A DNA stretch of 64,000 bases from an uncultured Microbacterium sp. (lineage in GTDB: Bacteria > Actinomycetota > Actinomycetes > Actinomycetales > Microbacteriaceae), in assembly GCA_913774845.1 (NCBI GenBank), contig CAJYJO010000020.1, positions 35,890 to 99,889 of the forward strand, in the 5' to 3' direction. Every line of letters starts with the position of its first letter. Position 1 is the stretch's first letter. Position numbers and translations under genes: made by a program. This document shows positions 5,001 through 36,150 of this stretch, one piece after another. The notes under the pieces are model-generated. The model had not been told where the DNA came from and did not search any database. It worked only from the letters and a program-made list of their open reading frames with translations.

Positions 5001-5846
5001 CGTCAGGTCCACCGTCGCGACGGCGTTGTTCTCCTGCAGGGTGACGTAGGCCACGGTGCCGTCGGTGGTGATGTACTCCGGCTCGAGGTTGCGCGAGACG
5101 CGGTTGGTCGACAGGGTCGCGGCATCCTGCCCCGGGGCGGCGACGTCGGGGCCGAAGACGCGCACCTTGGAGTCGAGCGTCTTGCTGCCGCCGGGCTCGA
5201 AGGCGCGGAAGCCCGCCGTCTTGACGGCGCTCTGAGCGGGGGCGGCCAGGGCGGACGACAGCGCGATGACGCTGACCGAGCCCTCGGGGTCGACCGAGAA
5301 GTCCGCCGCCGGCTCGCCTTCGTTGGCGACGACGGCGTAGGAGCCGTCCTTCGAGAAGGTCACCATGTCGGGGAGCGCGCCGACGGTGACCTCGCCGAGC
5401 TTGGCGCTTGCGGCATCCGTCTTGTTGGCGTCGAAGAAGACGAGATGACCGGGTTCGGTCTTCGTGGTGGCCTCGAAGGCGATGACGCCGAGGCCGTCGT
5501 CGCGGACGGCGACCGAGTTGGCGACGCCGTTCGAGGAGATGTCGAACAGCTTGACCGGCTTCTTCGGGTCTCTGTTGTCGAGCACCGTCACCGTCCCGGC
5601 CTGCGCGTTGACGACGAAGAGGCGGTCACGGTAGGCCTGGACGATCTCGGCGGCGGACTGCTTGTACACGCCCGTGTCGTAGGAGCCGACCGGGGTGACG
5701 GACAGGGCCGCACCGGCGGCGCTGTTCGAGACGGGCTGCGGGACGATCGCGGCAGACGCCGCGGTGGCGCTCGACAGGGCGAGCGCGCACACCGCAGCGG
5801 TCGTCGCGGTGAACGCGGCGGCGCGGCGGAGGAAGGTCGAAGGCAT
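2007..5846 (-). CDS. Wall-anchored bifunctional choice-of-anchor-I / metallophosphatase 5'-nucleotidase
   Basis: A 1279-residue exported protein. The start is ATG 5846, preceded by GAGGA; an upstream in-frame ATG lacks a ribosome site. Residues 1-34 form a signal peptide (LRRAAAFTATTAAVCALAL). Residues ~40-560 look like the choice-of-anchor I beta-propeller that precedes such nucleotidases. From ~565 the metallophosphatase begins with LTINDFHGRLL, followed by GNHEFDRG and SAHTHQ metal-site motifs, then the 5'-nucleotidase C domain (MNPGGLRADL). A PTPTV-rich linker, an Ig-like domain, and the C-terminal LAATG plus hydrophobic helix and RRRR tail follow, which is a class-E-type sortase signal. 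It probably hydrolyses extracellular nucleotides for phosphate and nucleoside salvage. The gene is monocistronic. Confidence 0.88.
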   Translation of the reverse strand: MPSTFLRRAAAFTATTAAVCALALSSATAASAAIVPQPVSNSAAGAALSVTPVGSYDTGVYKQSAAEIVQAYRDRLFVVNAQAGTVTVLDNRDPKKPVKLFDISSNGVANSVAVRDDGLGVIAFEATTKTEPGHLVFFDANKTDAASAKLGEVTVGALPDMVTFSKDGSYAVVANEGEPAADFSVDPEGSVSVIALSSALAAPAQSAVKTAGFRAFEPGGSKTLDSKVRVFGPDVAAPGQDAATLSTNRVSRNLEPEYITTDGTVAYVTLQENNAVATVDLTKAEVTGILPLGYKDWGTVGLDPSDKDGVNIRTVAGLKGLYMPDGIASYSAIANGKAATYLVTANEGDGREWGTFTDEARVKDLGKNGLGAVCATSPLAGRSADTDLGRLKVVTDLGKTADGCYSELYAYGGRSFSIWDTKGALVFDSGDQFEQKLKEVAPQLFNVSNDNNTVDDRSDDKGPEPENVTIGVVDGRTYAFIGLERAGGVMVYDITDPKAPAYVTYVNNRNASADVKTAAAGDLGPEGIAFVSALRSPTGVPLLVTGNEVSGTTTVFEVRPTQPKTPDLQILTINDFHGRLLQESGGVAGAGVLAGAVEKYRQQNPNTLFVSAGDNIGASAFESFIDQDTPTIKALKAATLDVSAVGNHEFDRGFADLTDRVIPAYGGNTGASSDFALGANVYQKGTKTPALKPYTIKQVGATKVAFVGTVTRQTAGMVDPSKISTIEFGDQVEAANREAKNARAAGADIVILLAHEGSEGTDCTKIATESGDFGDLVRGASSDVDAIVSAHTHQKYACSIGGRSVIQTGQYGTNLGTLDIDLDAAGKLVSITPGVRALLEPAVTQYIAYPQAATAKIVADAKATADTKGQVEVGKITADITRAKNGSGNEDRGQYSTLGNTVADVYLWATSENPSFNGQDAQIAFMNPGGLRADLLYGSDNGSVSYREAANVQPFGNTLVTLSLTGAQLKQVLEQQWQPSGASRPVLALGVSKGFTFEYDPSAAAGSRIKTIQLNGKAIDPAASYRVVTNSFLAAGGDNFTAFAQGTGKADSGQIDLQATVDFFTAKKSVAPSPLGRAYLTGSKPVDEGTGTPSPTPTPTVTPTPTVTPTPTVTPTPTVAPTTGPTPTATPTSGATGQPSTAPTTEPTAAPAAVTVTASVSRVEQGGSFTVTVTGLRAGEQVSATLNSTPTVVTGIPAADASGAVTFRVTVPAALAPGQHTVVVTRADGTVLPAVAIEVVRKGTLAATGAQGPWGIALAGGMLVVAGGLAFALRRRRTA
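2491..2562 (-). repeat. 18-bp tandem repeat encoding the PTPTV linker
   Basis: Four units of 18 bp (plus-strand form ACGGTGGGCGTAGGCGTG). The first two are identical, the third differs at one base and the fourth has drifted. They encode the Pro-Thr linker between nucleotidase and Ig-like domain. Such units can change copy number by slippage and so alter the stalk length of the wall protein. Confidence 0.85.
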
Positions 5847-5989
5847 GGCTGTGTCCTCGGGTTCGGGTGGGGATGCGATCGGCGCCAGCGGCGCGATCCT
5901 GTGGATTCTGCCTGGGTTCCGTGTCGGTCCGGTGAACGGGCGGAGAACGTGAGCGCGTGGCGTCCCGTCGGTGTTCAGGGCCCCTATCA

Positions 5990-20883: not shown

Positions 20884-21861
20884 TCAGCGCCCGAAGCGGG
20901 CGTCGAGCCAGGCGACCTGCTTGACGAAGTGGCGGTAGCCGCCGCCCTCGTGGCCGTTGTAGGGGTACACCTCGATCGCCGAGTCTTCGGATGCCACCGC
21001 GTGGTACGCCGCGAACACGCCCGACGGCAGCACGATGTCGTCCATCAGCCCGACCGAGAAGTACGCCGGTGCCGTGATGCGCCGCGCGAGGATCGCCCCG
21101 TCGACGTACGACACCGTCTGCAGGGCGCGTTCGGCGTCGTCGCGGTGCACCGAGAGGTACCGCGTGATCTCGGTGAAGGGCGGCAGGGGCGTGCGCAGGA
21201 TGGCGTTCGGGAAGTCGCAGAGGAACGGCACGTCGGGGAGCACCGCGGCGACCGCGTCGGCGGCGAGGGCCGCCGCGGCGATCGAGAGCCCGCCGCCCTG
21301 GCTCACCCCGGTGACCGCGACACGGTCGGGGTCGACTCCCGGGAGGCTCCGCACCACGTCGACCAGGCGAACGGCGTCGGTGATGAGGCGCCGGTAGTAG
21401 TAGTCGTGGGGATCCCGGATGCCGCGGGTCATGACCCCGGGGAAGGCTGCGGCCGAGCCGTGCGCGTCGGGGGTGACGCCCACACTCCAGCTCGACCCCT
21501 GCCCGCGGGTGTCCATGATGACGTGGACGTAACCGGCGTTGGCCCAGGTGACGCGCTCGCCGGGGAGTCCGCGCCCTCCGCCGTACCCGATGTACTCGAT
21601 CACGGCGGGGAGCACCTCGTCTCCCGGGGGTCGGACGATCCACCCGCGGATCTCGTCGCCCGCGAAGCCGCTGAAGGTGAGGTCCTCGATGCGCAGCGCC
21701 TTCAGCGGAGCGTCCGCCGGGGTGATCCGCGGCGCCGTCGCCGCCGCGCGGGCCTCGTTCAGCGTCGCGTCCCAGAACGTCTCGAGGGCGTCGGGCGCGG
21801 GGAGCTCGGGGCGGTAGGCGTGCAGGGCCTCGAGGGGCATATCGGTGAGGGTCACGGCCAT
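20884..21861 (-). CDS. CE7 acetylxylan esterase / cephalosporin-C deacetylase family
   Basis: A 325-residue alpha/beta hydrolase that removes acetyl groups from xylan oligomers. The three CE7 signatures are present: MDTRGQGSSW near 105, the nucleophile elbow VAVTGVSQGGGLS near 180, and the catalytic His in NGHEGGGYRHF near 301. The charge-relay Asp is probably in the SVGLMDDIVLPSG segment near 262. There is no signal peptide, as usual for CE7, so it acts on imported oligosaccharides. ATG 21861 with CAGGAG upstream is the start; longer in-frame starts have no family-like sequence. It is divergent from the GH43-GH51 enzyme, fitting arabinoxylan use. Confidence 0.9.
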   Translation of the reverse strand: MAVTLTDMPLEALHAYRPELPAPDALETFWDATLNEARAAATAPRITPADAPLKALRIEDLTFSGFAGDEIRGWIVRPPGDEVLPAVIEYIGYGGGRGLPGERVTWANAGYVHVIMDTRGQGSSWSVGVTPDAHGSAAAFPGVMTRGIRDPHDYYYRRLITDAVRLVDVVRSLPGVDPDRVAVTGVSQGGGLSIAAAALAADAVAAVLPDVPFLCDFPNAILRTPLPPFTEITRYLSVHRDDAERALQTVSYVDGAILARRITAPAYFSVGLMDDIVLPSGVFAAYHAVASEDSAIEVYPYNGHEGGGYRHFVKQVAWLDARFGR

Positions 21862-22042
21862 GGGGTTCTCCTGACGGTTCGGTCCGACAGTAGCGAAACG
21901 GCCGGGCATCTGGTCCGGCAGGCCCGCGATCCGGCCGGGGTCGCCTGCGATGTGAAGCCTCACACCATCGAACCGGTTGTCTCGATCACGATTGCGAAAC
22001 GCGCTTGACGGACGGAAGGCGAAGCCCAGATGATTGCGCATA

Positions 22043-22054
22043 GTTAGCGCTCAC
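22043..22054. promoter_or_regulatory. LacI-type operator between esterase and arabinofuranosidase genes
   Basis: GTTAGCGCTCAC is a 12-bp palindrome with one mismatched pair around a central GCGC, close to the GTTAGCGCTAAC form used by many actinobacterial LacI-family sugar repressors. It lies 56 bp before the GH43-GH51 start. The regulator gene is not in the window. Confidence 0.6.
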
Positions 22055-22109
22055 ATCTGCGCGACGTTCACCGGCCCCTGCCGGACACCCATCGTCGAGG
22101 AGGACGAGT

Positions 22110-25100
22110 ATGGTGCTGCCCCGATCCCGGTCGATCGACCGGAATCCCCGACGAGCCGGCCGCCGCGCCGGCTCGCTGCTCGCCGCGGCAGCGGTCGTTC
22201 TGAGCGGGATCGTTCCCGCCGCAGCCGCCTCCGCGGCACCGCTGCCCACACCGCTGGCGTCGTACGACTTCGGCGCGACCACGGGCACCACCGTGCCCGA
22301 CGCGTCGGGCCACGGACACGACGCGGTCATCCGCGGCACCGGGTCGAGCATCGAGGGCGACGCCCTCTCGCTCCCGGGCGGAGCGAACGGCTCGTCCGCC
22401 GCGTACGTCGAGCTCCCCACGGGCCTGTTCGACGACCACGACACGGTGACCGTCTCGGCCTGGCTGCAGGACCGCACCGGCGCCGGCAACCAGGCGGCGA
22501 TGTTCTTCGGCACGACCGAGAACCTGCCCTCGCAGTACTGGCTGCTCAACCCCTCCAACCCCGCCGGTCAGGTGAAGTCGGTGCTCACCGACGGCCCCGT
22601 CGGCACCCAGCCGTGGACGATCGAGCGGGGTATCGCACCGACGAACGCCGCGCGCGGCATCCCCGGGCCGGTCGCGACCGGCGAGTGGGCGCTGTACACC
22701 ACGGTCATCACGCCCACCTCGATCACCGGGTACCTCGACGGCACAAAGATCGGCACCGTCGCGACCTCGCGCACCGTCAGCGACTTCGGCTCGGGTCTGG
22801 TGTCGTACATCGGCAAGTCCAGCTACCCCGACCGCATCTGGAAAGGCGGGGTGCGCGACGTCGCCATCTTCGACAGCGCCCTCACCGACGACGACGTGAA
22901 GGCCCTCGTCGACGCCGGGACTCCGTCGAACCAGGACGACGTGGATGCCGCGGCCGCGGCCCTCGCGATCCCCGGTGCCGACGACGTGCGCGGCAACGTG
23001 ACGCTGCCCACGACCGGTCGTGAGGGCACGGCCGTCGCGTGGGAGTCCTCCGACGCCGCGGTCGTGACCGCCACCGGCGAGGTCACCCGCCCGGCCACCG
23101 GCGCCGCGGCGAAGAGCGTGACGCTCACCGCGACCGTGACCAAGGGCTCGAGCACCGCCGAGCGCACCTTCACCGTCAGCGTGCAGCCCCTCCCCGAGAA
23201 GGAGGAGCTGGGCGCCTACTTCTTCCCGTTCTTCACCGGGGAGAGCAGCACCACCGACGAGGAGATCTCGTTCGCGACCAGCCGCGGGGACGACCCGAAG
23301 AGCTGGCTGACACTGAACGACGGCAAGCCGGTGCTCACCTCCGACCAGGGCGAGCAGGGTATCCGCGACCCGTTCGTGATGCGCTCGCCCGACGGCGACC
23401 GCTTCTACATGCTGTCCACGGACCTGAACATGTTCGACCTGTACAACGGCGACTTCGGACGCGCGCAGGAGGTCGGCAGCCGCAAGCTGAACGTCTGGCA
23501 GTCCGACGACCTCGTCTCCTGGAGCCCGCTGCGGCAGATCACGGTGTCGAGCGAGCTGGCCGGCAACACCTGGGCTCCCGAGGCCACCTGGGACCCCGAC
23601 CGGGGGGAGTACGTCGTCTACTGGGCGTCGAACCTCTACCCCAGCGCCGCGACCTCCGGCCGTCGGGCCGCCGACAGCTACAACCGCATGATGATGGTCA
23701 CCACGCGCGACTTCGTCACCTTCAGCGAGCCGCAGCCGTGGGTCGACGTCAAGCGCGGAGCCGGCAAGGGCACGATCGACGCCACCGTCGTCCGCGACGG
23801 CGACACCTACTACCGCTTCATCAAGGACGAGGCGAGCATGACGGTGCGCCAGGAGCGCTCCACCGACCTGACCGCGACCGTGACCGGTTCGCTGCCCACG
23901 ACCACGTCTGCCCCCGGCTGGCAGCTCGTGAAGGAGCAGATCGGCGTCGGCCAGCCCAACCCCTGGGGCGGTACTTTCACCAACGGCGAGGGCCCGACGG
24001 TGTTCGCCGACAACGCCGAGGCCGGCCACTGGTTCATGCTCATCGACCAGCCCAGCTACCACGGCGGCAAGGGCTACATGATGTTCGAGACCCGCGACAT
24101 CGCCTCGGGGAACTGGACGTCGGTGCCCGACGCGCAGCTGCCCGACCGTCCGCGTCACGGCACGGTCATGCCGATCACGGCCACCGAGCAGCAGCGCCTG
24201 CTCGCCGCCTACCCCACCGATGAGACCGCCGACTACACCATCACCGCCGACGCGGCGAGGCAGGGCGCGCAGATCGACGACGCGATGTACGGCGTCTTCT
24301 TCGAGGACATCAACAACGCCGCCGACGGCGGCCTGTACGCCGAACTCGTGCGCAACCGCTCCTTCGAGTTCCTGCCCGTCGACAACCGCGGCTTCACCGG
24401 CATGACGGCGTGGACGCCGGTCGGGCTCGGCGGCGGTTCGGGCTCGGCGAAGCCGGTGAACGACGACAAGCGCATGAACGAGCGCAACCGCACCTACCTG
24501 CAGCTCGACCTCGACGGCGGCTCGGGGACGTACGGCGTGGAGAACGCCGGATTCGACACGGGCATCGCCCTCGTCAAGGGCGAGCAGTACAACGTGTCGT
24601 TCTGGGCCCGTACGACGGCGACGAACGGCACCCCCGTCTCGCTCGTGCTGCGCGGCGCCGACGGCACCGCGCTCTCGGAGACGCTCACGAAGATCGCGGG
24701 TGGCGACCAGTGGCTGAAATACGAGGGCACGGTCACGGCATCCGCCACCACCGACGCTGCTCGTCTGCTCGTGCAGGCGGCGGGCCCGGGAACGCTCCGC
24801 CTCGACGAGGTCTCGGTGTTCCCGAAGGACACCTTCATGGGCCGCGCGAACGGTCTGCGCAAGGACATCGCGCAGAAGATCGCCGACCTGCACCCGAAGT
24901 TCGTGCGCTTCCCCGGCGGCTGCATCGTCAACGTCAACAGCCACGAGGACTACTCGGCGGACTCGAACTACGAGCGCGCCCGGTCGTACCAGTGGAAGGA
25001 CAGCGTCGGCCCGGTCGAGACCCGCGCCACCAACGCCAACTTCTGGGGCTACAACCAGTCGCTGGGCCTGGGCTACTACGAGTACTTCCAGTTCGCGGAA

Positions 25101-27644
25101 GACATCGGCGCCAAGCCCGTGCCCGACGTGCCGGCCCTGTTGAACGGGTGCGGTCAGGCTCTCCAGCCCACCGATCCCGCGCTGCTGCAGCGCCACATCC
25201 AGGACACGCTCGACCTGATCGAGTTCGCCAAGGGCGACGTCACCACGACCTGGGGCAAGCTCCGCGCCGACATGGGGCACCCCGCCCCGTTCGAGCTCGA
25301 CCGCATCGAGATCGGCAACGAGGAGAACTACCCCGAGGCGTTCATGGCGAACTTCGTGGCGTTCCGGGATGCCATCAAGGCGAAGTACCCCGACATGACC
25401 CTCATCAGCAACTCGGGTCCTGACGCCGAAGGCGCGAACTTCGAGAAGCACTGGGCGCAGAACAAGGCCGAGAAGGTCGACATGGTGGACGAGCACTACT
25501 ACCGCGACCCGTCGTGGTTCCTCACCCACAACCAGCGCTACGACTCCTACGACCGCAACGGACCGAAGGTGTGGATCGGTGAGTACGCCTCGCGCGACAA
25601 CCGCTTCTTCAACGCGCTGTCCGAGGCGGCCTACATGACGGGCCTGGAGCGCAACGCCGACGTGGTCAAGATGGCCTCCTACGCACCCCTGCTCGCCGAC
25701 GTCAGCAACACGCAGTGGCGTCCGGACCTCATCTGGTTCGATCGCGACCAGGTGTGGGGCTCGGCCAACTACGAGGTGCAGAAGCTGTTCATGGCGAACG
25801 TGGGCGACCGCGTCGTGCCGACCACGGCGACCGGGGATCTGGCATCCACCACCCTCGCCGGAGCCGTCGGACTGTCGACGTGGAGCACCTCGGCGCGCTA
25901 CGACGACGTCAAGGTCACCGCGCCCGACGGGTCGACGCTCTTCGCGGACGACTTCTCCGACAAGAACGACGACGGCTGGACGAAGCTCGCGAACGCGGGC
26001 TCGTGGTCGGCGGCCGACGGCAGCTACGTGCAGTCGTCGACGACGGCGAACAACACGCTCGTCGCCGGCCCGAAGCTCACGGCGACCGACTACGACGTGT
26101 CGCTCAAGGCCACCAAGCTGGCCGGGGCCGAGGGCTTCCTCGTCGGCTTCGGCGTGCAGGGCTCCTCCGACTACCTGTGGTGGAACCTCGGCGGCTTCGG
26201 CAACTCCCGCAGCGTCGTGGAGAAGGCCGTGGGTGGAGCGAAGTCGATCGTCGCCGACACCGGCACGCCGCGCATCGAGACGAACCGCACCTACGATCTG
26301 CGCATCCAGGTGCGCGGCCCGCAGGTGACGCTCTTCGTCGACGGGGCGCAGCAGGGGCAGTTCACCAACACCGCGGTGGAGCCCTTCGCGCAGGTGATGA
26401 CGAAGGACGAGGCGTCGGGCGACGTGATCCTCAAGGTCGTCAACGCCCAGGCCAAGGCGGCCGAGACGAGCATCGACCTCGGGGGACTGTCGGTGCAGCC
26501 CACCGCCGACGTGACGACCCTCGAAGCGGCGCCGGGCGCGGTCAACACCGCCACCGAGACGCCGGTCGCGCCGAAGACCTCGACGATGCAGGTGTCCGGG
26601 TCGTTCACGCACTCGTTCGCGCCCTACTCGGTCACGTTCGTCCGCATGCACACCCGTCCGGCCGACACCACGGCGCCCACGGTGACGGTCTCGACCTCGC
26701 CGGCCGTGGCCGACGGGGCCGAGGGCTGGTACGTCTCGCAGCCCACGGTGACCGCGACGGCGAAGGACGAGGTCGACGCGTCCCCCCGTCTGCGCGTCAG
26801 CACCGACGGAGGCGAGACGTGGGCCCCCTACACCGGCCCCGTGACCCCCGCCGACGGCTCGTGGGACCTTGCTTTCGAGGCCATCGACGCCGCCGGCAAC
26901 GTCTCGCCGACGACGAAGGTCGCTCTCAAGGTCGACCGCACCGTGCCGACCATCGCCGCCGACGTGGATGCCACGGCCCGAACGGTCCGGCTCACGGCGA
27001 GCGATGCGGTCTCGGGCGTGGCCCGCGTGGAGTACCGCGTGGGCGAGGCGGCGACGTGGACCACCGTCGCCGGTACCGAGTCGGTCGTCACGGTCGGCGA
27101 GGACGCCACGACGGTGTCGTACCGCGCGGTCGACGTGGCCGGCAACGTCAGCGGCACCGGGTCGACCTCGGTGGGCGCGGAGGCGGGCGAGCCGACTCTG
27201 TCGGTGGCCGGCGACCTCGTCGCGGGCGGCGTCATCACCGTCTCGGGCACCGGGTGGCCGGCCGACGCCGACGGTGTGCTGGAGCTGCACTCGACCCCGG
27301 TCGAGCTCGGCACCGTGCGCACCGACGCAGCGGGCGCGTTCCGCGTGAACGTGACGCTGCCCGCCGACGTCACGGGATCGCACCGGGTCGTCGCCCGCAT
27401 CGGCGGGGTCGAGGCCGCGGTCGCGGTCGAGATCCGCGCGGCGGCGACGCCCGGCGGCACCGGGGGCGTCCTTCCCACGCCGGGAGCCTCGGCGGCTCCG
27501 GGTGTCTCGACCGGCGGTGCCCCGTCGCCGCTCGCGGTGACCGGCGGCGTCGTCTCCGGCGGTGCACTCGTGCTGGGTCTGCTGGCGGTGCTGATCGGTG
27601 CGGCGATGAAGCGTCGCCGCCGGGCGGTGGGCGGTGACGCCTGA
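22110..27644 (+). CDS. Wall-anchored multidomain arabinofuranosidase: LamG, Ig, GH43, GH51, accessory domains, LAVTG anchor
   Basis: An 1844-residue exported protein. A signal peptide spans 1-~44 (RAGSLLAAAAVVLSGIVPAA). A LamG-like domain follows (~48-270), then an atrophied Ig domain (~277-360) and a GH43-type propeller (~365-695), with RDPFVMRSPDGDRF and NTWAPEATWD holding the usual acid residues. GH51 (~710-1247) has YGVFFEDINNAADGGLYAEL, RFPGGC, acid/base Glu in EIGNEENY near 1067 and nucleophile Glu in VWIGEYAS near 1155. A further LamG-like domain (~1275-1470) and Ig-like domains lead to LAVTG, a hydrophobic helix and KRRRR. It should release arabinose from arabinoxylan or arabinan at the cell surface. 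A GAGGAGG lies before the ATG. Confidence 0.88.
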   Translation: MVLPRSRSIDRNPRRAGRRAGSLLAAAAVVLSGIVPAAAASAAPLPTPLASYDFGATTGTTVPDASGHGHDAVIRGTGSSIEGDALSLPGGANGSSAAYVELPTGLFDDHDTVTVSAWLQDRTGAGNQAAMFFGTTENLPSQYWLLNPSNPAGQVKSVLTDGPVGTQPWTIERGIAPTNAARGIPGPVATGEWALYTTVITPTSITGYLDGTKIGTVATSRTVSDFGSGLVSYIGKSSYPDRIWKGGVRDVAIFDSALTDDDVKALVDAGTPSNQDDVDAAAAALAIPGADDVRGNVTLPTTGREGTAVAWESSDAAVVTATGEVTRPATGAAAKSVTLTATVTKGSSTAERTFTVSVQPLPEKEELGAYFFPFFTGESSTTDEEISFATSRGDDPKSWLTLNDGKPVLTSDQGEQGIRDPFVMRSPDGDRFYMLSTDLNMFDLYNGDFGRAQEVGSRKLNVWQSDDLVSWSPLRQITVSSELAGNTWAPEATWDPDRGEYVVYWASNLYPSAATSGRRAADSYNRMMMVTTRDFVTFSEPQPWVDVKRGAGKGTIDATVVRDGDTYYRFIKDEASMTVRQERSTDLTATVTGSLPTTTSAPGWQLVKEQIGVGQPNPWGGTFTNGEGPTVFADNAEAGHWFMLIDQPSYHGGKGYMMFETRDIASGNWTSVPDAQLPDRPRHGTVMPITATEQQRLLAAYPTDETADYTITADAARQGAQIDDAMYGVFFEDINNAADGGLYAELVRNRSFEFLPVDNRGFTGMTAWTPVGLGGGSGSAKPVNDDKRMNERNRTYLQLDLDGGSGTYGVENAGFDTGIALVKGEQYNVSFWARTTATNGTPVSLVLRGADGTALSETLTKIAGGDQWLKYEGTVTASATTDAARLLVQAAGPGTLRLDEVSVFPKDTFMGRANGLRKDIAQKIADLHPKFVRFPGGCIVNVNSHEDYSADSNYERARSYQWKDSVGPVETRATNANFWGYNQSLGLGYYEYFQFAEDIGAKPVPDVPALLNGCGQALQPTDPALLQRHIQDTLDLIEFAKGDVTTTWGKLRADMGHPAPFELDRIEIGNEENYPEAFMANFVAFRDAIKAKYPDMTLISNSGPDAEGANFEKHWAQNKAEKVDMVDEHYYRDPSWFLTHNQRYDSYDRNGPKVWIGEYASRDNRFFNALSEAAYMTGLERNADVVKMASYAPLLADVSNTQWRPDLIWFDRDQVWGSANYEVQKLFMANVGDRVVPTTATGDLASTTLAGAVGLSTWSTSARYDDVKVTAPDGSTLFADDFSDKNDDGWTKLANAGSWSAADGSYVQSSTTANNTLVAGPKLTATDYDVSLKATKLAGAEGFLVGFGVQGSSDYLWWNLGGFGNSRSVVEKAVGGAKSIVADTGTPRIETNRTYDLRIQVRGPQVTLFVDGAQQGQFTNTAVEPFAQVMTKDEASGDVILKVVNAQAKAAETSIDLGGLSVQPTADVTTLEAAPGAVNTATETPVAPKTSTMQVSGSFTHSFAPYSVTFVRMHTRPADTTAPTVTVSTSPAVADGAEGWYVSQPTVTATAKDEVDASPRLRVSTDGGETWAPYTGPVTPADGSWDLAFEAIDAAGNVSPTTKVALKVDRTVPTIAADVDATARTVRLTASDAVSGVARVEYRVGEAATWTTVAGTESVVTVGEDATTVSYRAVDVAGNVSGTGSTSVGAEAGEPTLSVAGDLVAGGVITVSGTGWPADADGVLELHSTPVELGTVRTDAAGAFRVNVTLPADVTGSHRVVARIGGVEAAVAVEIRAAATPGGTGGVLPTPGASAAPGVSTGGAPSPLAVTGGVVSGGALVLGLLAVLIGAAMKRRRRAVGGDA

Positions 27645-28688: not shown

Positions 28689-29813
28689 TCAGCTGGTGAG
28701 GAGCGTCAGGCCGTAGGTCTGCAGGATCTCGTTGACGGGCTGGAAGTAGGTCGTCCCGCCCGAGGTGCAGTCGCCGGATCCGCCGGAGGTGACGCCCTGC
28801 GCCTGGTTGCCGGCGAGGAGCGAGCCGCCGGAGTCGCCCGGCTCGGCGCAGACGTTCGTGCGGATGAGGCCCGACACCGAACCCTGCGGGTAGCGCACGG
28901 TGGAGTTGAAGCCCTGGATCTGCCCGCAGTGCCATCCGGTCGTCGATCCCGAGCGGCAGACGGTCGCGCCGACCGCGGCCTGGGTGGAGCCCTTCACCGC
29001 GACCGCGCCACCGGCGTAGTCCATGACCTGGCCGACCGGGGTGTGGTTGGGGGTGGCGACCCAGGCGTAGTCGTTTCCGGGGAAGGACGAACCGCGGAAG
29101 GTGCCGTAGTTCGTGCTGTCGCCGGTGACGCCGCAGTGTCCGGCGGTGACGAAGCCGCCCTGCACGGCGAAGCCGACGGAGCAGCGGCTGGAGTTGTTGA
29201 TGAAGTACGACATGCCGCCGCGGATCGTGGCGAACGTCTCGGGCGCCTCGACACCGGTCTGCAGGCGCACGGCGTCGGCCGGGGCGTCGAGCGTGGCGAC
29301 GAAGTCGGCCGCTGCCTGGTCGCCGCCAGAGACGACGTCGACGACGAGGTCGTTCGCCTCGACGTCGATCCACCAGGAGGGGATGACGTCGGGCACCGGG
29401 CTGGCCTCGATCTGCGCCGCGATGGCCTCGAGGTCGGCGAGCGAGTGCTCGGCCGCGACGGGCACGGCGCCCGCGTCGGCCGCGGCTTCGCGAGCGGCAT
29501 CGGTGGTCGCGGCGGCGTACACGGTGCGCGTCGACTCGTCGAGCCAGGTGCCCGCGAAGGCGTCGCCGGATGCGGCCTCGACCTCGTCGGCGGTGCCGGC
29601 CGCGTCGGCCTGGAAACGCAGGACGTCCTGGGCTCCCGCGACATCGGTGCCGAGGTCGGCGGCCATCGCCTCGAGCAGCTGCGCGTCGACGCCGTCGACG
29701 GCGGCACCCGTGGGGGCGGCCGGGGTCTGCGCCAGCGCGGGGGCGGTGGCGGCGGTGGTCAGGAACAGGCCGAGCGCGGCAGCGCCGACGACCGTCTTCG
29801 AGAATCGGTTCAC
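28689..29813 (-). CDS. Secreted S1 family serine protease (streptogrisin/alpha-lytic type) with propeptide
   Basis: A 374-residue exported protease. Signal peptide 1-~28 (MNRFSKTVVGAAALGLFLTT). A ~150-residue acidic propeptide follows (TWLDESTRTVYAAATTD, WWIDVEANDLVVDVVSG, like the alpha-lytic pro-region). The mature domain from ~200 begins IRGGMSYFINNSSRCSVGFAV, and the triad is His in FVTAGHCG, Asp in NDYAWV and Ser in EPGDSGGSL. Six Cys residues allow three disulfides. GTG 29813 is preferred, with GGAAGG 10 nt upstream; ATG 29831 would add MEGHSN but lacks a ribosome site. It is divergent from the PutA-like gene, with 234 bp between. Likely a nutritional exoprotease. Confidence 0.92.
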   Translation of the reverse strand: MNRFSKTVVGAAALGLFLTTAATAPALAQTPAAPTGAAVDGVDAQLLEAMAADLGTDVAGAQDVLRFQADAAGTADEVEAASGDAFAGTWLDESTRTVYAAATTDAAREAAADAGAVPVAAEHSLADLEAIAAQIEASPVPDVIPSWWIDVEANDLVVDVVSGGDQAAADFVATLDAPADAVRLQTGVEAPETFATIRGGMSYFINNSSRCSVGFAVQGGFVTAGHCGVTGDSTNYGTFRGSSFPGNDYAWVATPNHTPVGQVMDYAGGAVAVKGSTQAAVGATVCRSGSTTGWHCGQIQGFNSTVRYPQGSVSGLIRTNVCAEPGDSGGSLLAGNQAQGVTSGGSGDCTSGGTTYFQPVNEILQTYGLTLLTS

Positions 29814-30034: not shown

Positions 30035-30040
30035 TAGGCT
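30035..30040 (+). promoter_or_regulatory. -10 box of an apparently leaderless PutA-like mRNA
   Basis: TAGGCT is followed by 7 nt and then the ATG at 30048. There is no Shine-Dalgarno. This spacing fits a leaderless transcript. Confidence 0.55.
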
Positions 30041-30047
30041 GACGGGC

Positions 30048-33000
30048 ATGAGCACGAACGACCCCGGCAGCACCGGTCCTGCGCTCTCCGCCGACCTCGC
30101 CTCGCGCGCCGCGGCCGCGTCCGCGGCATTCGCTCCGCGCGCCGACGCCCTCGCTCCGGCACGCCGGGGCGAACTGCCGGTCGACCCCGATGCGGCGGCC
30201 TTCGTCGCCGCCGCGGTCGACGGCGTCCTGCGTCCCGAGAGCATGAGTGCCGCCGCCGCCGCGCTGCATCGTCTCGCCGGGGAGATCCCCGCCTCGCTGC
30301 CGTGGTTCGTGCGCGGGGCCCTGCACCTCGGCGGTGCCGTCGCTCCCGTGCTGCCGACGCCCGCCGTGCCCCTCGCGCGGCGCGCCCTGCGAGACCTGCT
30401 GGGCGCTCTCGTGTTCGACGCCCGCCCCGAGCACCTCGGCGCGGAGCTCGCCGCGTCGACGTCCGACGGCGTCGTCCTCGACCTGCGCCTGGACGGCCCC
30501 GCGGTGCTCGGCGACACCGCCGCGCGCCGCCGGCTCGACGGCATCCGCTCCCTCGTCTCGCGCGAGGACGTCGATCGCGTGTCGTTCGCCGTCGCCGACG
30601 TGGTGCCGGGGCTCTCCCGGTGGGACTTCGACGCCGACGTCGAGCACGCCGCGGAGCGGGTGCTTCCGGTGCTCCTCGCCGCGGCGACGGCGGGAACCCA
30701 CGTGACGCTCGTGGCTCCCGGCCGCGACGAGCTCGATCTCACCGTCGCGGTGCTCACGCGCGTGCTCGAGGAACCCGGTCTGCTCGACCTGCACGCCGGT
30801 ATCGCGCTCCCCGTCGCCGCGGCCGAGACGCTCGACGCGGTCCGCGAGCTGGCCGCGTGGGCGCGCGTTCGCGTGAGCGCCGGCGGCGGGCGTCTGACGG
30901 TGCGTCTGAGCGATGAGCTCGCCGATGTCCCGGATGCCGTCCGCGCGGCCCGCCACGGGTGGCTCGCCCCGGTCGCCACGGCGCGCGACGAGGTGGACGC
31001 CCTGCTCGTGCGCGCGCTGCGCGAGGCGCTCGGCGACCGCGGCCGCGAGGGCTTCGCCGTCGAGGTCGCCACCGCCGACCCCGAGCGCGCCGCTCTCGCC
31101 CTCGCTCTCGCCGCCGACGCCGCCCCGGTCGAGGACGGCCCGGCCGACGTGCTGCGCCTGGTCGTTCCGCGCGGCGCCGCCTGGCGGCCCGACCGCTCGC
31201 ACGTCGTCTCGGCGGCCGCGGTGCATCCCGACGACCTGGACGCGGTCTCGGCCCGGCTCGCGTCGCGCTACGCCGCGGAACTCGCCGAGGCCGCCGCCCT
31301 CCCCGTCGCCGTTCCCACCGACGGCACCACCGAGCCCGCCGACGAGGTCCCCGAGACCCGTGCCGTGTCCGCACGCGTGCAGCGGGCCGTCGACGCCGCC
31401 GCCGTGCCGCCCCCGGCTCCCCGGCCCGCCCAGCGGCGCGGAGACGACGATCCTGCGATCCTGCGCGACCGCGCCGACGACGACACCGCCGAGCCCGGAC
31501 TCACGCAGGCGGTGCTGGGCATCGCGCGGGAGGCCGTGGCATCCGGGGACACCTCCGCCCTGGGACCGGACGTGCAGCAGATGCTCTTCGGTGGACAGGC
31601 CTTCGTCGACACCGCGGTCTTCTCGGCGCGCGAGAGCGCCGAACTCGCCGGCGGGGCGCCCGGGTTCCGCAACGCCGCCGACACCGACCCGACGGTCGCC
31701 GAGGATCGCGCCTGGGCGTTGGCGGCCTTGCGCGGCGTCGCCGCGTCCACCGCGGGCGACGCCACCGCCGCCGCGGGCCGCGTCGACGACGAGGCGGGGC
31801 TGGACGCCGTCATCGAGCGCGTACGGGCGGCGGCCGAGCCGTGGGGCGCGCTCGCCGCTGCCGACCGCGCCGCCGTGCTGCAGTCGGCCGCGCGAACGCT
31901 CGGGCAGCGTCGCGCCGAGTTCGTCGAGGTGCTCGCCTCCGAGGGCGGGGCGCTCCTGACCGAGGCCGACGCCGAGGTGAGCCAGGCGGTCGACGCCGCG
32001 GCCTACTACGCGGCGACCGCCAAGGAGCTCGACCGCGTGCCGGGTGCGGTGTTCGTCCCCGATCGGGTCAGCGTCGTCGCCCCGCGCTGGAACGCCCCTG
32101 TCGGTCTGTGCGCCGCCGAGACGCTCGCGGCGCTCGCCGCCGGGTCCGGTGTGGTCCTCACCCCCTCCCCGCGCGCCCGCCGTGCCGGCGCCGTCGTCGC
32201 GGAAGCGCTGTGGGCGGCGGGGGTGCCGCGCGACCTGCTCGCCTACGTCGATCTCAACGAAGACGCCTCGGGGCGCGCGCTCATCGTGCACCCCGGCGTG
32301 GACCGCGTGCTGCTCGCCGGCGCCCGCGCGACCGCGGAGCGCTTCGCCTCGTGGCGACCCGCGCTGCCCCTCCAGGCGCTCACCGCGGGGCGCAACGCCG
32401 TGATCGTGACCCCGTCGGCCGATCTCGATGCCGCCGTCGCCGACATCGTCGCGAGTGCCTTCGCCCGGGCGGGGCAGGCCGCCACCGCGGTGTCTCTGGT
32501 GATCCTCGTCGGCGCTGTGGCGCGCTCGACGGCGTTCCACGATCAGCTCAAGGACGCCGTGTCGTCGCTGCGGGTCGGTCCCGCCGACGACCCGCTGTCC
32601 GACATCGGCCCGCTCGTCGAGGAGCCGACCGGTGAGGTGCGCCGCGCGCTGACCGTGCTCGGCGAGGGCGAGCGCTGGCTCGTCGAACCGCGCGAGCTCG
32701 ACCTCGGTGCCGAGACCGCGGGTCGGTTCTGGTCGCCCGGGGTGCGCACGGGTGTGACGGCCGGTTCCCACCTGACGCGCGCGGCGGTCGCGGCGCCCGT
32801 GCTCGGCATCCTGCATGCCCCCACCGTGACGCGCGCGATCGACCTGCAGAACGCGATCGGTTCCGGGTTCCTCGCGGGGCTCCATACGCGCGACTCCGCC
32901 GACCTCGAGCTGTGGCTCGACACGGCGGAGGCGGCGGTCCTGCGCGCGAACCGACCGTCTCCGGGCGGCGTGGTGCAGCGCGAGCCGCTCGGCGGCTGGG

Positions 33001-33761
33001 GCGAGGCGAGTGTCGGCGACGGGGCGATGGCGGGCGGTCCGAACCGCCTCGTGACGCTCGGGTCGTGGCGGCCGAGCGCCGGTGGGGCGTCGTCGTCGAC
33101 CCTGCACCTGCGCGGACTCGACAGCCGCATCACGGCCCTCATCGAGGCCGCGCAGCCGACGCTCTCGTACGAGGCCTTCGACTGGCTGCGCCGCGGTGCG
33201 CTGTCGGACGCCGTCGCGTGGGACCGCGAGTTCGGTCGCGTGCGAGACGTGTCGCGGCTCGGCGTCGAACGCAACCTCCGTCGCTACCGTCCGGTCGACG
33301 TCGCGGTGCGGGCGACGGGCGACGCGTCCTGGCAGGCGGTGCTGCGCGTCCTGGTCGCGGCGGTGCGGTCGGGCTCGTCCTTCTCGCTCAGCACCCCGGT
33401 GGGCCTGCCCGCGGCGGTGCGGCACCTGCTGGGCGACAGCGGCGTGGCCGTGTCGGTCGAGACCGACGCCGAGTGGCTGCAGCGTCTCGCCGGTGGAGGG
33501 ACGGATGCCGCGGACGCCGACGCCCTCGCGGGCGTTCCGCTTCCGCCGCGGATCCGCCTGGTGGGCCCGGCCGAGACCGTCGCGACGCTTCGTGCGGCGG
33601 TGGCCGAGGTCGCGGGTGCCGACCTTTCGCGCACGGTGTTCGCCGACGAGGTCACGACCGCCGGCCGGCTGGAGCTGCTGCCCTTCCTGCGCGAGCAGGC
33701 GGTGTCGATCGGCGCGTTCCGGTTCGGGCGGGTCGACGGCTGGAGCGGCGAGGTCATCTGA
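30048..33761 (+). CDS. PutA-like protein with degenerate proline dehydrogenase and P5C dehydrogenase domains
   Basis: A 1237-residue intact protein with the full architecture of trifunctional-length actinobacterial PutA: N-terminal ~420-residue ProDH-like domain, linker (ending FRNAADTDPTVAEDRAW), ~500-residue ALDH-like domain, and C-terminal extension. The fold-defining segments align but the catalytic ones do not. Where I expect MEEYRDLDLT there is APGRDELDLT; LVKGA is replaced by LSDELA; the RRLxEN flavin/proline motif is replaced by SARLAS. In ALDH, GQRCSAL reads GQAATAV (Cys lost), ETGGQNA reads LTAGRNA (Glu lost), and EFFGPVLG reads AVAAPVLG. It is probably a pseudoenzyme with a structural or regulatory role. 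Codon use matches its neighbours and there is no frameshift, so it is under selection as protein. Confidence 0.8.
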   Translation: MSTNDPGSTGPALSADLASRAAAASAAFAPRADALAPARRGELPVDPDAAAFVAAAVDGVLRPESMSAAAAALHRLAGEIPASLPWFVRGALHLGGAVAPVLPTPAVPLARRALRDLLGALVFDARPEHLGAELAASTSDGVVLDLRLDGPAVLGDTAARRRLDGIRSLVSREDVDRVSFAVADVVPGLSRWDFDADVEHAAERVLPVLLAAATAGTHVTLVAPGRDELDLTVAVLTRVLEEPGLLDLHAGIALPVAAAETLDAVRELAAWARVRVSAGGGRLTVRLSDELADVPDAVRAARHGWLAPVATARDEVDALLVRALREALGDRGREGFAVEVATADPERAALALALAADAAPVEDGPADVLRLVVPRGAAWRPDRSHVVSAAAVHPDDLDAVSARLASRYAAELAEAAALPVAVPTDGTTEPADEVPETRAVSARVQRAVDAAAVPPPAPRPAQRRGDDDPAILRDRADDDTAEPGLTQAVLGIAREAVASGDTSALGPDVQQMLFGGQAFVDTAVFSARESAELAGGAPGFRNAADTDPTVAEDRAWALAALRGVAASTAGDATAAAGRVDDEAGLDAVIERVRAAAEPWGALAAADRAAVLQSAARTLGQRRAEFVEVLASEGGALLTEADAEVSQAVDAAAYYAATAKELDRVPGAVFVPDRVSVVAPRWNAPVGLCAAETLAALAAGSGVVLTPSPRARRAGAVVAEALWAAGVPRDLLAYVDLNEDASGRALIVHPGVDRVLLAGARATAERFASWRPALPLQALTAGRNAVIVTPSADLDAAVADIVASAFARAGQAATAVSLVILVGAVARSTAFHDQLKDAVSSLRVGPADDPLSDIGPLVEEPTGEVRRALTVLGEGERWLVEPRELDLGAETAGRFWSPGVRTGVTAGSHLTRAAVAAPVLGILHAPTVTRAIDLQNAIGSGFLAGLHTRDSADLELWLDTAEAAVLRANRPSPGGVVQREPLGGWGEASVGDGAMAGGPNRLVTLGSWRPSAGGASSSTLHLRGLDSRITALIEAAQPTLSYEAFDWLRRGALSDAVAWDREFGRVRDVSRLGVERNLRRYRPVDVAVRATGDASWQAVLRVLVAAVRSGSSFSLSTPVGLPAAVRHLLGDSGVAVSVETDAEWLQRLAGGGTDAADADALAGVPLPPRIRLVGPAETVATLRAAVAEVAGADLSRTVFADEVTTAGRLELLPFLREQAVSIGAFRFGRVDGWSGEVI

Positions 33762-33865: not shown

Positions 33866-34618
33866 ATGCGCGTGGACCTCAACGCCGACCTCGGCGAGAC
33901 CGTCGCTGGCGTCCCCACCGCCGACGACGAGGCGATGTTCGCCGTGATCTCGAGTGCGAACGTCGCCTGCGGCGCTCACGCGGGCGACGCGGCCTCGATG
34001 AGGGATGCCGTCGAGCGCGCCGCCCGCTTCGGCGTCGCCGTCGGCGCGCACCCCTCGTACGACGACCGCGCCCACTTCGGACGCGCCCGCCGCGACCCCG
34101 CGCCGGCCGACCTCCGTGCGAGCGTCGCCGCGCAGCTGGACGCGCTCGCCGCGGCGGGGGCCGACATCCGATACGTCAAACCGCACGGGGCGCTCTACCA
34201 CGCCGTGATCGACGATCCGCCGCAGGCCCGCGCCGTCACCGCCGCCGTCGCCGACCTGTCGGCGCGACTCGGACGCGCGCTGCCCGTGCTCGGCATGACC
34301 GGCGCGATCGCCGAGGCCGCGGCATCCGCGGGTCTGCCCTTCGTGCACGAGGCGTTCCTCGATCGCGGCTACACCGCCCGGGGCTCCCTCGTGCCGCGGG
34401 GCGAGCCGGGCGCCCTCGTCGACGACCCCGCCGTCGTCGCCGACCGCGCGCTGCGCCTCGTCCGCGCGGGCGAGGTCGAGGCCGTCGACGGGACGCGCAT
34501 CGCGGTGGACGCCGCGTCCCTGTGCCTGCACGGAGACACCCCGTCGGCGGTCGCGATGGCTCGCGCCGTGCGTGCGGCGCTCGACACCGCCGGGGTCACG
34601 GTGCGTGCCCCGTGGTGA
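33866..34618 (+). CDS. pxpA: 5-oxoprolinase subunit A (LamB/YcsF family)
   Basis: A 250-residue LamB/YcsF protein, part of the ATP-dependent 5-oxoprolinase PxpABC that opens pyroglutamate to glutamate. It starts MRVDLNADLGETVAG, the family hallmark with metal-binding Asp/Asn, then has SSANVACGAHAGD near 30, GAHPSYDD near 60, VKPHGALYHAV near 105, HEAFLDRGYTARGSLVPR near 165 and a C-terminal SLCLHGDTPSAV near 220. The stop overlaps the pxpBC start. Placed just upstream of rpoB on the same strand, but with its own promoter. Confidence 0.93.
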   Translation: MRVDLNADLGETVAGVPTADDEAMFAVISSANVACGAHAGDAASMRDAVERAARFGVAVGAHPSYDDRAHFGRARRDPAPADLRASVAAQLDALAAAGADIRYVKPHGALYHAVIDDPPQARAVTAAVADLSARLGRALPVLGMTGAIAEAAASAGLPFVHEAFLDRGYTARGSLVPRGEPGALVDDPAVVADRALRLVRAGEVEAVDGTRIAVDAASLCLHGDTPSAVAMARAVRAALDTAGVTVRAPW

Positions 34619-36150
34619 CCCTGCTGCCGATGGGGGAGCGGGCCCTGCTCGCCGAGGTCGCGGATCTCGCCGCCGTCCTGGCGCTGCACGCGGCCCTCGA
34701 CGCCGACGTCCTCGACGGCGTCGACGACCTCGTCCCCGCCGCCCGCACCGTGCTCGTCGTCTTCGACCCGGCGCGGGTGTCGTCCGAGACCATCGGGTCC
34801 TGGGTCCTCCGTGCGGCGGGGCGTGCCCCGGATGCCATCGCCCCCGGGCCTCTCGTCGAGGTGCCGGTGCGCTACGACGGCGCCGACCTCGACTCCACCG
34901 CCGAGCTCCTCGGCATCCCCGTGCCCGATCTCATGGCCCGCCACGCGGGGGTGGAGTGGACGGTGGCGTTCACCGGGTTCGCCCCGGGCTTCGCGTACCT
35001 GGTGAGCGCGGACTGGTCGTTCGACGTCCCGCGCCTGGCCGAGCCGCGCACGCGCGTGCCGGCGGGGGCGGTCGGGCTCGCGGGCGGGTTCAGCGGCGCC
35101 TACCCCCGCGAGACCCCCGGCGGCTGGCGGCTCATCGGGACCACCGACGCCGTGCTGTTCGACCCGGATGTCGCCGACCCCGTGCTCCTGCCCCCGCGGG
35201 CTCGCGTGCGGTTCGTTCCCGAGCGTGACCGCCTCACCGCCGCCTCCGCGTCGACCGAGGCGGCGGAGCCCGTCGGGGCTTCCCCCGCCGCGGCCCGCCC
35301 GGTCCTGCGGATCGACTCGCCCGGCGGCGCCACCACCGTGCAGGACCTCGGCCGACCCGGCCGCGCGGCGCTCGGGGTGGCCCGCTCCGGCGCCCTCGAC
35401 CGCACGGCGCTGCGTATCGCCAATCGGCTGGTCGGCAACGCGGAGGGCGCCGCGGGCCTCGAGATCACGATGGGCGGTTTCGCCGCGCGCGCCGCGACCG
35501 CCACGTGGGTCTGCGTGACCGGCGCGCTCGCCGACATCACCGTCGACGGACGGGCGGTGGATGCCTACGCACCCGTGCTCGTGCCCGCGGGGGCCGAGCT
35601 GCGCATCGGGGCCCCGCGTGCCGGGCTCCGCGCGTACCTCGTGGTGCGGGGTGGCATCCTCGCGCCCCGGGCGCTGGGCTCGCGGGCGCGGGACGCGCTG
35701 GCCGGTCTCGGCCCCGCGCCGCTGGCCGCCGGCGACGAACTGTCCGCCGGGGAGCCGGCATCCGTCGTCCCGCCCGTCGACTCCTTTCCCTGGACGGTCC
35801 CGCCGCCCTCGATCGACGTGCGCATCGCCCCGGGGCCCCGCGCCGACTGGTTCGCGCCCGGGGCGATCGACACGCTAGCGGACACGGCGTGGAGCGTGTC
35901 GCCGCACGCCGACCGCGTCGGCATCCGCCTCGACGGCCCCGCCCTCGCCCGCACGCGCCACGACGAACTGCCCAGCGAGGGCATGCGGCCCGGTGCGATC
36001 CAGGTGCCGCCGCACGGGCGCCCGGTCGTCCTGCTGGCCGACGGCCCCGTGACCGGCGGGTACCCCGTGATCGCCGTGGTGACGGATGCCGCACTGGACG
36101 CGCTCGCGCAGGTGCGGCCGGGCGATCGCGTGCGCTTCCGGCGCGTCTGA
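34615..36150 (+). CDS. pxpBC: Fused 5-oxoprolinase subunits B and C (KipI/KipA-type)
   Basis: A 511-residue single polypeptide joining two usually separate proteins. Residues 1-~205 are PxpB (KipI, allophanate-hydrolase subunit 1), with VEWTVAFTGFAPGFAYL near 114, RTRVPAGAVGLAGGFSGAYPR near 145 and TPGGWRLIGTT. After a linker, residues ~225-511 are PxpC (KipA, subunit 2), with LRIDSPGGATTVQDLGRPGR, GVARSGALDRTALRIANRLV and the C-terminal DELPSEGMRPGAIQVPPHGRPVVL. GTG 34615 gives a GTGA overlap with pxpA; GTG 34612 is an alternative. Fusion enforces 1:1 stoichiometry. Confidence 0.92.
   Translation: MTLLPMGERALLAEVADLAAVLALHAALDADVLDGVDDLVPAARTVLVVFDPARVSSETIGSWVLRAAGRAPDAIAPGPLVEVPVRYDGADLDSTAELLGIPVPDLMARHAGVEWTVAFTGFAPGFAYLVSADWSFDVPRLAEPRTRVPAGAVGLAGGFSGAYPRETPGGWRLIGTTDAVLFDPDVADPVLLPPRARVRFVPERDRLTAASASTEAAEPVGASPAAARPVLRIDSPGGATTVQDLGRPGRAALGVARSGALDRTALRIANRLVGNAEGAAGLEITMGGFAARAATATWVCVTGALADITVDGRAVDAYAPVLVPAGAELRIGAPRAGLRAYLVVRGGILAPRALGSRARDALAGLGPAPLAAGDELSAGEPASVVPPVDSFPWTVPPPSIDVRIAPGPRADWFAPGAIDTLADTAWSVSPHADRVGIRLDGPALARTRHDELPSEGMRPGAIQVPPHGRPVVLLADGPVTGGYPVIAVVTDAALDALAQVRPGDRVRFRRV

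Follow-up and report, generated by a model that had tools for sequence, protein, structure and literature searches.

The bifunctional enzyme PutA is a textbook case of substrate channelling. The window analysed here, a stretch of 64,000 nucleotides from an uncultured Microbacterium sp. (contig CAJYJO010000020.1, positions 35,890 to 99,889), carries on its forward strand a gene (30048..33761, stop codon included) for a PutA-like protein of 1237 amino acids in which catalytic residues of both the proline dehydrogenase (ProDH) and the aldehyde dehydrogenase (ALDH) domain have been replaced. The locus raises the question of whether such a gene is decaying, encodes an enzyme with a different reaction, or is kept for a role other than catalysis. 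The comparisons described below suggest that its product is very probably a maintained pseudoenzyme, as the earlier note on this sequence had proposed. This reading is supported by losses shared across a whole clade, strong constraint on the ALDH domain, a reading frame that most members have preserved, and conservation of a promoter-like element.

Catalytic residues of a full-length PutA homologue

The open reading frame call and its translation confirmed an uninterrupted frame of 1237 codons plus stop. The PutA order and length claimed for it were borne out by Pfam matches and by alignment of both halves to the best PDB match, 5ux5 (473 bits; halves at 120 and 349 bits). The Pfam match of the ALDH half leaves no doubt (Aldedh, 209 bits, E 1.1e-61), and that of the ProDH half is borderline, with 25 bits in the protein scan (cut-off 27) and 28.6 bits in the genome search. 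The 5ux5 structure is the type-B PutA of Corynebacterium freiburgense, whose domain order, length and C-terminal domain are those of the window protein. The latter likewise contains ProDH, ALDH and C-terminal domains in one chain, and is slightly long for the type-B size class of 1100-1200 aa (PMC5293562). It differs from 5ux5 in the absence of the ALDH Cys and Glu and of the ProDH Lys, Tyr and Arg pair, and in a fast-diverging ProDH half. The protein does not reach the NCBIfam cut-offs for PutA, which is uninformative because PutA-1, the active PutA of the same genome, fails them too. In a first structure prediction the mean predicted local distance difference test score (pLDDT) was 55. Confidence was found mainly in the ProDH half, where strands alternate with helices and many 10-residue blocks score 85-92; the best Foldseek match was again 5ux5, with a query template modelling score of 0.27.

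The catalytic columns were examined in an alignment with PutA-1, with active PutAs and with the window-type genes of other genomes. These genes, defined by at least 64% identity per aligned piece, are referred to as clade A and are represented by 37 distinct aligned sequences, the window included. The six motifs claimed to be replaced are indeed all replaced in the window protein and in its clade. In the ProDH-like half (residues 40-430, 30165..31337; Pro_dh match at residues 138-358), LDMEEF became LVAPGR and VKGA became SDEL, the Lys being Asp in 36 of the 37 sequences and Gly in one. The YLxRRLEE motif is lost, since its first Arg is kept in 2/37, the second in 9/37 (window included) and the last Glu in 6/37, and the catalytic Tyr is absent from all 37.

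The ALDH-like domain (residues 580-992, 31785..33023), delimited by the Aldedh match, has been changed no less clearly. The motif that the earlier note had read as ETGG is ETSGK in this subfamily; the loss of its Glu stands. The sequence is now LTAGR, with Leu778 (32379..32381) where the general-base Glu would stand; 24 of the 37 sequences have Leu here, 12 have Phe and one has Val. GQKCSA became GQAATA, where Ala812 (32481..32483) replaces the catalytic Cys (Ala 35, Pro 1, Ser 1). EYFGP became AVAAP, where Ala913 (32784..32786) replaces the Glu (Ala 36/37, Ser 1/37) and the Phe is likewise Ala in 36/37. Two residues are retained in all 37 sequences: the oxyanion-hole Asn682 (32091..32093) and the ProDH Asp of TDASY. 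In contrast, PutA-1 (51 sequences) and PutA-2 (34 sequences), the latter being the Microbacterium PutA closer to the window protein, keep the tabulated catalytic residues, the one exception being a PutA-2 in which Ser has replaced the KPA Lys.

The position of the catalytic Cys was anchored by solved PutA structures, and the losses were upheld. The column of Ala812 corresponds to the Cys of 4q73 (GQRCS), where 6bsn, which we take to be the C792A structure of Bradyrhizobium japonicum PutA, reads GQRAS. The window protein thus naturally carries Ala at the position where Ala was engineered in C792A, a variant described in PMC5786444 as lacking glutamate semialdehyde dehydrogenase activity. In Sinorhizobium meliloti PutA, catalytic roles are assigned to Cys844, Glu810, Asn707, Lys265, Tyr473 and Arg488/489 (PMC12398946). 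Measured against the ProDH set of PutA (Lys, Tyr, Arg-Arg, Glu), the window protein falls short, and of the ALDH set of Cys, Glu and Asn it has only the Asn. It is an enzyme homologue without conserved catalytic motifs, which is how a pseudoenzyme is characterised in PMC10211241.

Two trivial accounts of these losses were considered. A sequencing or assembly artefact was ruled out because 37 distinct clade-A sequences share the losses. A shift of the catalytic residues to nearby positions found no support: no substitute general base or cofactor residue was seen nearby in the clade-A alignments. The conserved new residue there is Cys688 (32109..32111), which replaces the last Pro of WNFPxAIP, so that the clade-A rows read VGLC. 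With a frequency of at least 95% in clade A, P688C was scored as a type-II site. The possibility is taken up again below among the rival explanations.

Distribution and selection in clade A

The gene type was found in 38 Microbacterium genomes, eight from a first survey (own genome included) and 30 of 44 chosen genomes; relatives occur in M. testaceum, M. enclense, M. proteolyticum and further Microbacterium. The Cys and Glu of the ALDH domain and the Lys and Tyr of the ProDH domain are absent from all 37 aligned sequences, so the search for orthologues with the same losses gave a clear answer. The search for a second, canonical putA did so as well: apart from the gene itself, exactly one Pro_dh match exists in the own genome, namely PutA-1 (locus L061), with intact motifs. 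All 38 clade-A genomes have PutA-1, which in the 37 other than the own genome is 85-94% identical to the own copy. The DNA pattern for ETSGKNA occurred once in 37 of these genomes and twice in G375, in which one PutA-1 was found.

Among the other 14 chosen genomes, seven sister genomes (G118, G386, G144, G247, G342, G164, G347) and G340 have a PutA-2 with intact motifs, five carry a dead PutA-2 of four further types, and G088 showed PutA-1 only. PutA-2 without a PutA-1 match was seen in 13 first-survey genomes, with intact motifs in 13/13 and one ETSGKNA pattern each. A wider census combined two DNA patterns with a PutA-1 search, which matched 359/366 genomes at 1e-100 with PutA-1 and PutA-2 undistinguished, so that clade-A genomes with weaker PutA-1 matches could be missed. 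From pattern counts and a distant match, G271 is likely a further member. As separate observations on PutA-1, this gene is broken into several frames beside an intact PutA-2 in G034 (L080, G034:C1:567000-576000), the opposite of the clade-A situation, and PutA-1 matches run through in-frame TGA codons in G058, G059 and G355 (two each) and G247 (one).

Selection was estimated as the median pairwise ratio of nonsynonymous to synonymous substitution rates (dN/dS), rows under 1050 aa being excluded here and from the trees. In clade A, 665 of 666 pairs were usable, the pairs not being independent; the 37 rows include the window and L052, whose tail is out of frame after residue 1083. Purifying selection proved to be uneven. 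The ratio was 0.143 for the ALDH domain (residues 561-1010), 0.214 for the C-terminal domain, 0.308 for the linker and 0.397 for the ProDH half (1-430). For PutA-1 of 27 clade-A genomes (351 pairs) the corresponding values were 0.119, 0.167, 0.178 and 0.089. For active PutA-2 (666 pairs) they were 0.246, 0.341, 0.478 and 0.250, the 37 rows including three PutAs of other families (L086, L088, L090). The frames of most clade-A members are kept at a pairwise dS of about 0.7, as calculated from the medians. Neutral drift would have introduced stops, because of 2000 simulated copies only 40 remained without a stop at 0.1 substitutions per site, 2 at 0.2 and 0 at 0.3. Maintenance by selection is therefore apparent for clade A and less clear for the other dead genes.

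Single columns were compared as well. Active PutAs share 137 invariant ALDH columns, of which clade A retains 81, has 23 fixed to another residue and varies at 33; for 108 such ProDH columns the numbers are 27, 12 and 69. The active rows of this comparison include L086, L088, L090, L085, L087 and L091, which the residue table omits. The stem branch leading to clade A is long, at 0.6 changes per column. Moreover, the linker segment (residues 482-530, 31491..31637) is near-invariant in the 37 sequences and gapped or unconserved in other groups, the part around LGPDVQQMLFGGQ being conserved in clade A only. A DNA pattern for its VQQMLFGGQ matched one of 378 family genomes, the own genome, in a draw that also held seven others of the genus (none from clade A) and 370 of other genera. 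The C-terminal domain of type-B PutA (33075..33758) is conserved in clade A and in five other aligned dead genes. Its tail motif LLPFLREQAVSIGAFRFG (33675..33728) has similar counterparts in PutA-1, active PutA-2 and printed dead genes. PFLREQA of this tail was invariant in 22 rows of one alignment, and the REQ motif (as FLREQ, FVREQ or YLREQ) is retained in the dead genes whose tails were printed.

The PutA-2 locus and the number of origins

The dead gene groups with PutA-2 in trees. Active PutA-2 shows about 46-55% identity to the window protein and has in common with it neighbours, a TAGGCT start and the segment STLHLRGLDSRI, which is absent from PutA-1. Because active PutA-2 and dead genes partly share their neighbours, the dead gene is best read as a PutA-2 that would have been converted in place. 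One side is formed by thioesterase and acetyltransferase genes. On the other side two arrangements occur: one with genes for a zinc alcohol dehydrogenase, a dimethylargininase-type protein and ornithine aminotransferase, the second with a LacI regulator and sugar-transport genes. Downstream of the dead gene of M. testaceum StLB037 (L034), and co-directional with it, lie genes for an arabinosylfuranosidase, a dimethylargininase and an ornithine aminotransferase.

The earlier note had also attributed a leaderless-type promoter to the gene. The claim held at the level of the motif: TAGGCT, a putative -10-like element (30035..30040), lies 7 nt before the ATG in 14/14 printed clade-A upstreams, which were hand-chosen. 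A generic sigma-70 scan, on the other hand, found no promoter. Eleven other PutA-2-locus genes (four dead, seven active) and one PutA-1, likewise hand-chosen, were scanned for TANNNT 5-8 nt before the start codon. Exact TAGGCT was found 6-7 nt before the start in 10/11 of the former, L174 has TAGTGT instead, and the single PutA-1 upstream gave no match. The element seems to be ancestral and retained after the loss of catalysis, because it also precedes other PutA-2-locus genes, both dead and active.

Open-frame PutA-2 genes without the catalytic Cys, lying in genomes with a PutA-1 with active motifs, were also found in the near-identical G158 and G159 and in G125, G113 and G161. In G159 (L179, G159:C1:93000-98500), PutA-1 is broken into overlapping frames of 922 aa and 308 aa, the PutA-2 being dead as well. 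In a stretch of G085 (L171, G085:C1:1607000-1617000) the sole PutA-like match is 78 aa (5658-5891), perhaps a PutA-2 remnant. Whether all dead genes go back to one inactivation depends on the tree. FastTree (133 rows) placed 42 dead genes in one clade, with support 1.0, or 0.976 without the motif columns. IQ-TREE on selected rows divided them into two groups; its 28-row set omits L173, L174 and L175. In a short search with 44 rows, L174 and L175 joined clade A as flagged long branches, and we are unsure of their positions. The approximately unbiased (AU) test rejected the one-clade tree without the motif columns (p-AU 0.0026) and did not reject it with them (p-AU 0.137). The replacements were the same as in clade A in 8/36 columns for L168, 13/35 for L177, 14/41 for L174 and 14/43 for L175, with shuffle means of 3.7-5.1; this excess would be expected from either common origin or convergence. 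Two separate inactivations are favoured here, and not claimed, since each dead group lies with its own species group, as judged by PutA-1, and its own locus type.

In the window the gene retains, upstream, the neighbouring genes for a thioesterase, an acetyl xylan esterase, an 1844-aa protein and an S1 protease; downstream, however, lie LamB/YcsF and carboxyltransferase genes and rpoBC. The acetyl xylan esterase and the 1844-aa protein occupy 20887-27644, and relatives of the latter occur near the dead gene in L041 and L165. The S1-type protease, with an alpha-lytic prodomain (28689-29813, reverse strand), is divergent from the dead gene and adjoins it in L041 too. The LamB/YcsF and carboxyltransferase-domain genes lie at 33869-36150, between the dead gene and rpoB/rpoC. 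A functional link to these and to rpoBC was dropped, as no PxpA or RpoB match was found within 7.7-8.6 kb downstream in three other clade-A loci (L164, L165, L166).

Possible roles of the protein

The product of the window-type gene probably has a non-enzymatic job, because the gene is mostly intact and part of the protein is near-unchanged. Within the M. testaceum group, in which PutA-1 is present too, the catalytic residues of both domains were lost. After the long stem branch, the ALDH and C-terminal domains evolve under strong constraint, with the ProDH half relaxed. The function would be exerted through the ALDH/C-terminal half, most likely by binding a partner. On balance we favour such a maintained, non-catalytic protein working by binding. 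The favoured partner is PutA-1, whose activity or assembly might be modulated, although this part of the proposal is no more than tentative. A second candidate role, as a scaffold for glutamate-semialdehyde chemistry, is suggested by the dimethylargininase and ornithine aminotransferase genes that several genomes have in the vicinity of PutA-2 or of its dead counterpart. The earlier note had also considered sensors. The relaxation of the ProDH half makes a flavin sensor less likely, and the loss of the KPA Lys and of the EFFGP Glu does the same for an NAD sensor. In the type-B PutA of Rhodobacter capsulatus, the C-terminal domain aids ALDH activity and channelling (PMC5293562). Its persistence in a protein without ALDH chemistry suggests that this domain may work in trans or be purely structural.

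Several observations weigh against a maintained binding protein. Two clade-A copies are frameshifted (G007, L082; and L052, at the same contig position as G198), and the presence of PutA-1 alongside the dead form is equally predicted by plain redundancy. The highly divergent dead genes of G113 and G161 may be decaying. In the second lineage, constraint on the ALDH domain is weaker than in clade A, as G158 and G125 gave 0.329 for this domain, which is not low, 0.390 for the ProDH half and 0.262 for the C-terminal domain; that the last is the most constrained part counts in favour of the binding protein. Conservation of the former ALDH active-site columns does not stand out from that of the remaining domain (0.919 versus 0.898; as high in 1658 of 10000 random sets), and in the ProDH half the former motif columns are less conserved than the rest (0.682 versus 0.739). 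In addition, no usable structure prediction was obtained for the ALDH and C-terminal domains (mean pLDDT 39).

Among the alternatives, the one that survives best, though it is unlikely, is a non-catalytic sensor or buffer that binds pyrroline-5-carboxylate/glutamate semialdehyde or proline instead of a protein. It would fit the homology retained over the whole chain and the nearby dimethylargininase and ornithine aminotransferase genes of several genomes, and the inactive C792A B. japonicum PutA is reported to bind proline in its glutamate semialdehyde site (PMC5786444). However, replacements have occurred at the Phe of WNF, at the charged residue preceding the Cys and in the EFFGP loop, so the old ligand would be held differently. 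A re-purposed enzyme, in which the old ALDH pocket with Asn682 and Cys688 runs a different reaction, is somewhat less probable still. The clade-wide conservation of both residues and the 23 ALDH columns fixed to new states speak for it; the general base, KPA Lys and EFFGP Glu are gone, and Cys688 and Asn682 are absent from five other dead genes. With the former motif columns about as conserved as the rest of the domain, a re-purposed pocket is no more than a possibility. The weakest alternative, a slowly decaying pseudogene tolerated because PutA-1 does the job, draws on the high ProDH ratio, the two frameshifted copies, the divergent genes of G113 and G161 and the short match in G085, but is rendered improbable by the low clade-A ratios in the ALDH and C-terminal domains, the frames kept at that dS, the clade-wide linker motif and the conserved promoter-like element.

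The preferred reading, a maintained protein acting by binding, has a precedent of a kind. Human ALDH16A1 is not known to be a ProDH fusion of the PutA type. Like the window protein, it is an ALDH homologue without catalytic residues and is thought to act by protein binding, so ALDH-superfamily pseudoenzymes as such are already known (PMC10650815). It is described there as having none of the catalytic residues, whereas the window protein keeps the Asn. No PutA-type protein dead in both domains was described in the titles and abstract openings of the open-licence literature among the matches listed.

Summarizing, a clade-wide PutA dead in both domains, with its ALDH/C-terminal half constrained, would separate structural or regulatory work from catalysis, and the active, dead and frameshifted versions present in close relatives form a natural experiment. 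Such genes should not be annotated as proline dehydrogenases. It is also conceivable, though rather doubtful, that PutA-2 already had a non-catalytic ALDH/C-terminal job, possibly on PutA-1, before the loss, and that this job was retained when catalysis was given up independently in at least two lineages. If true, a bifunctional enzyme would have been turned into a double pseudoenzyme more than once at the same locus.

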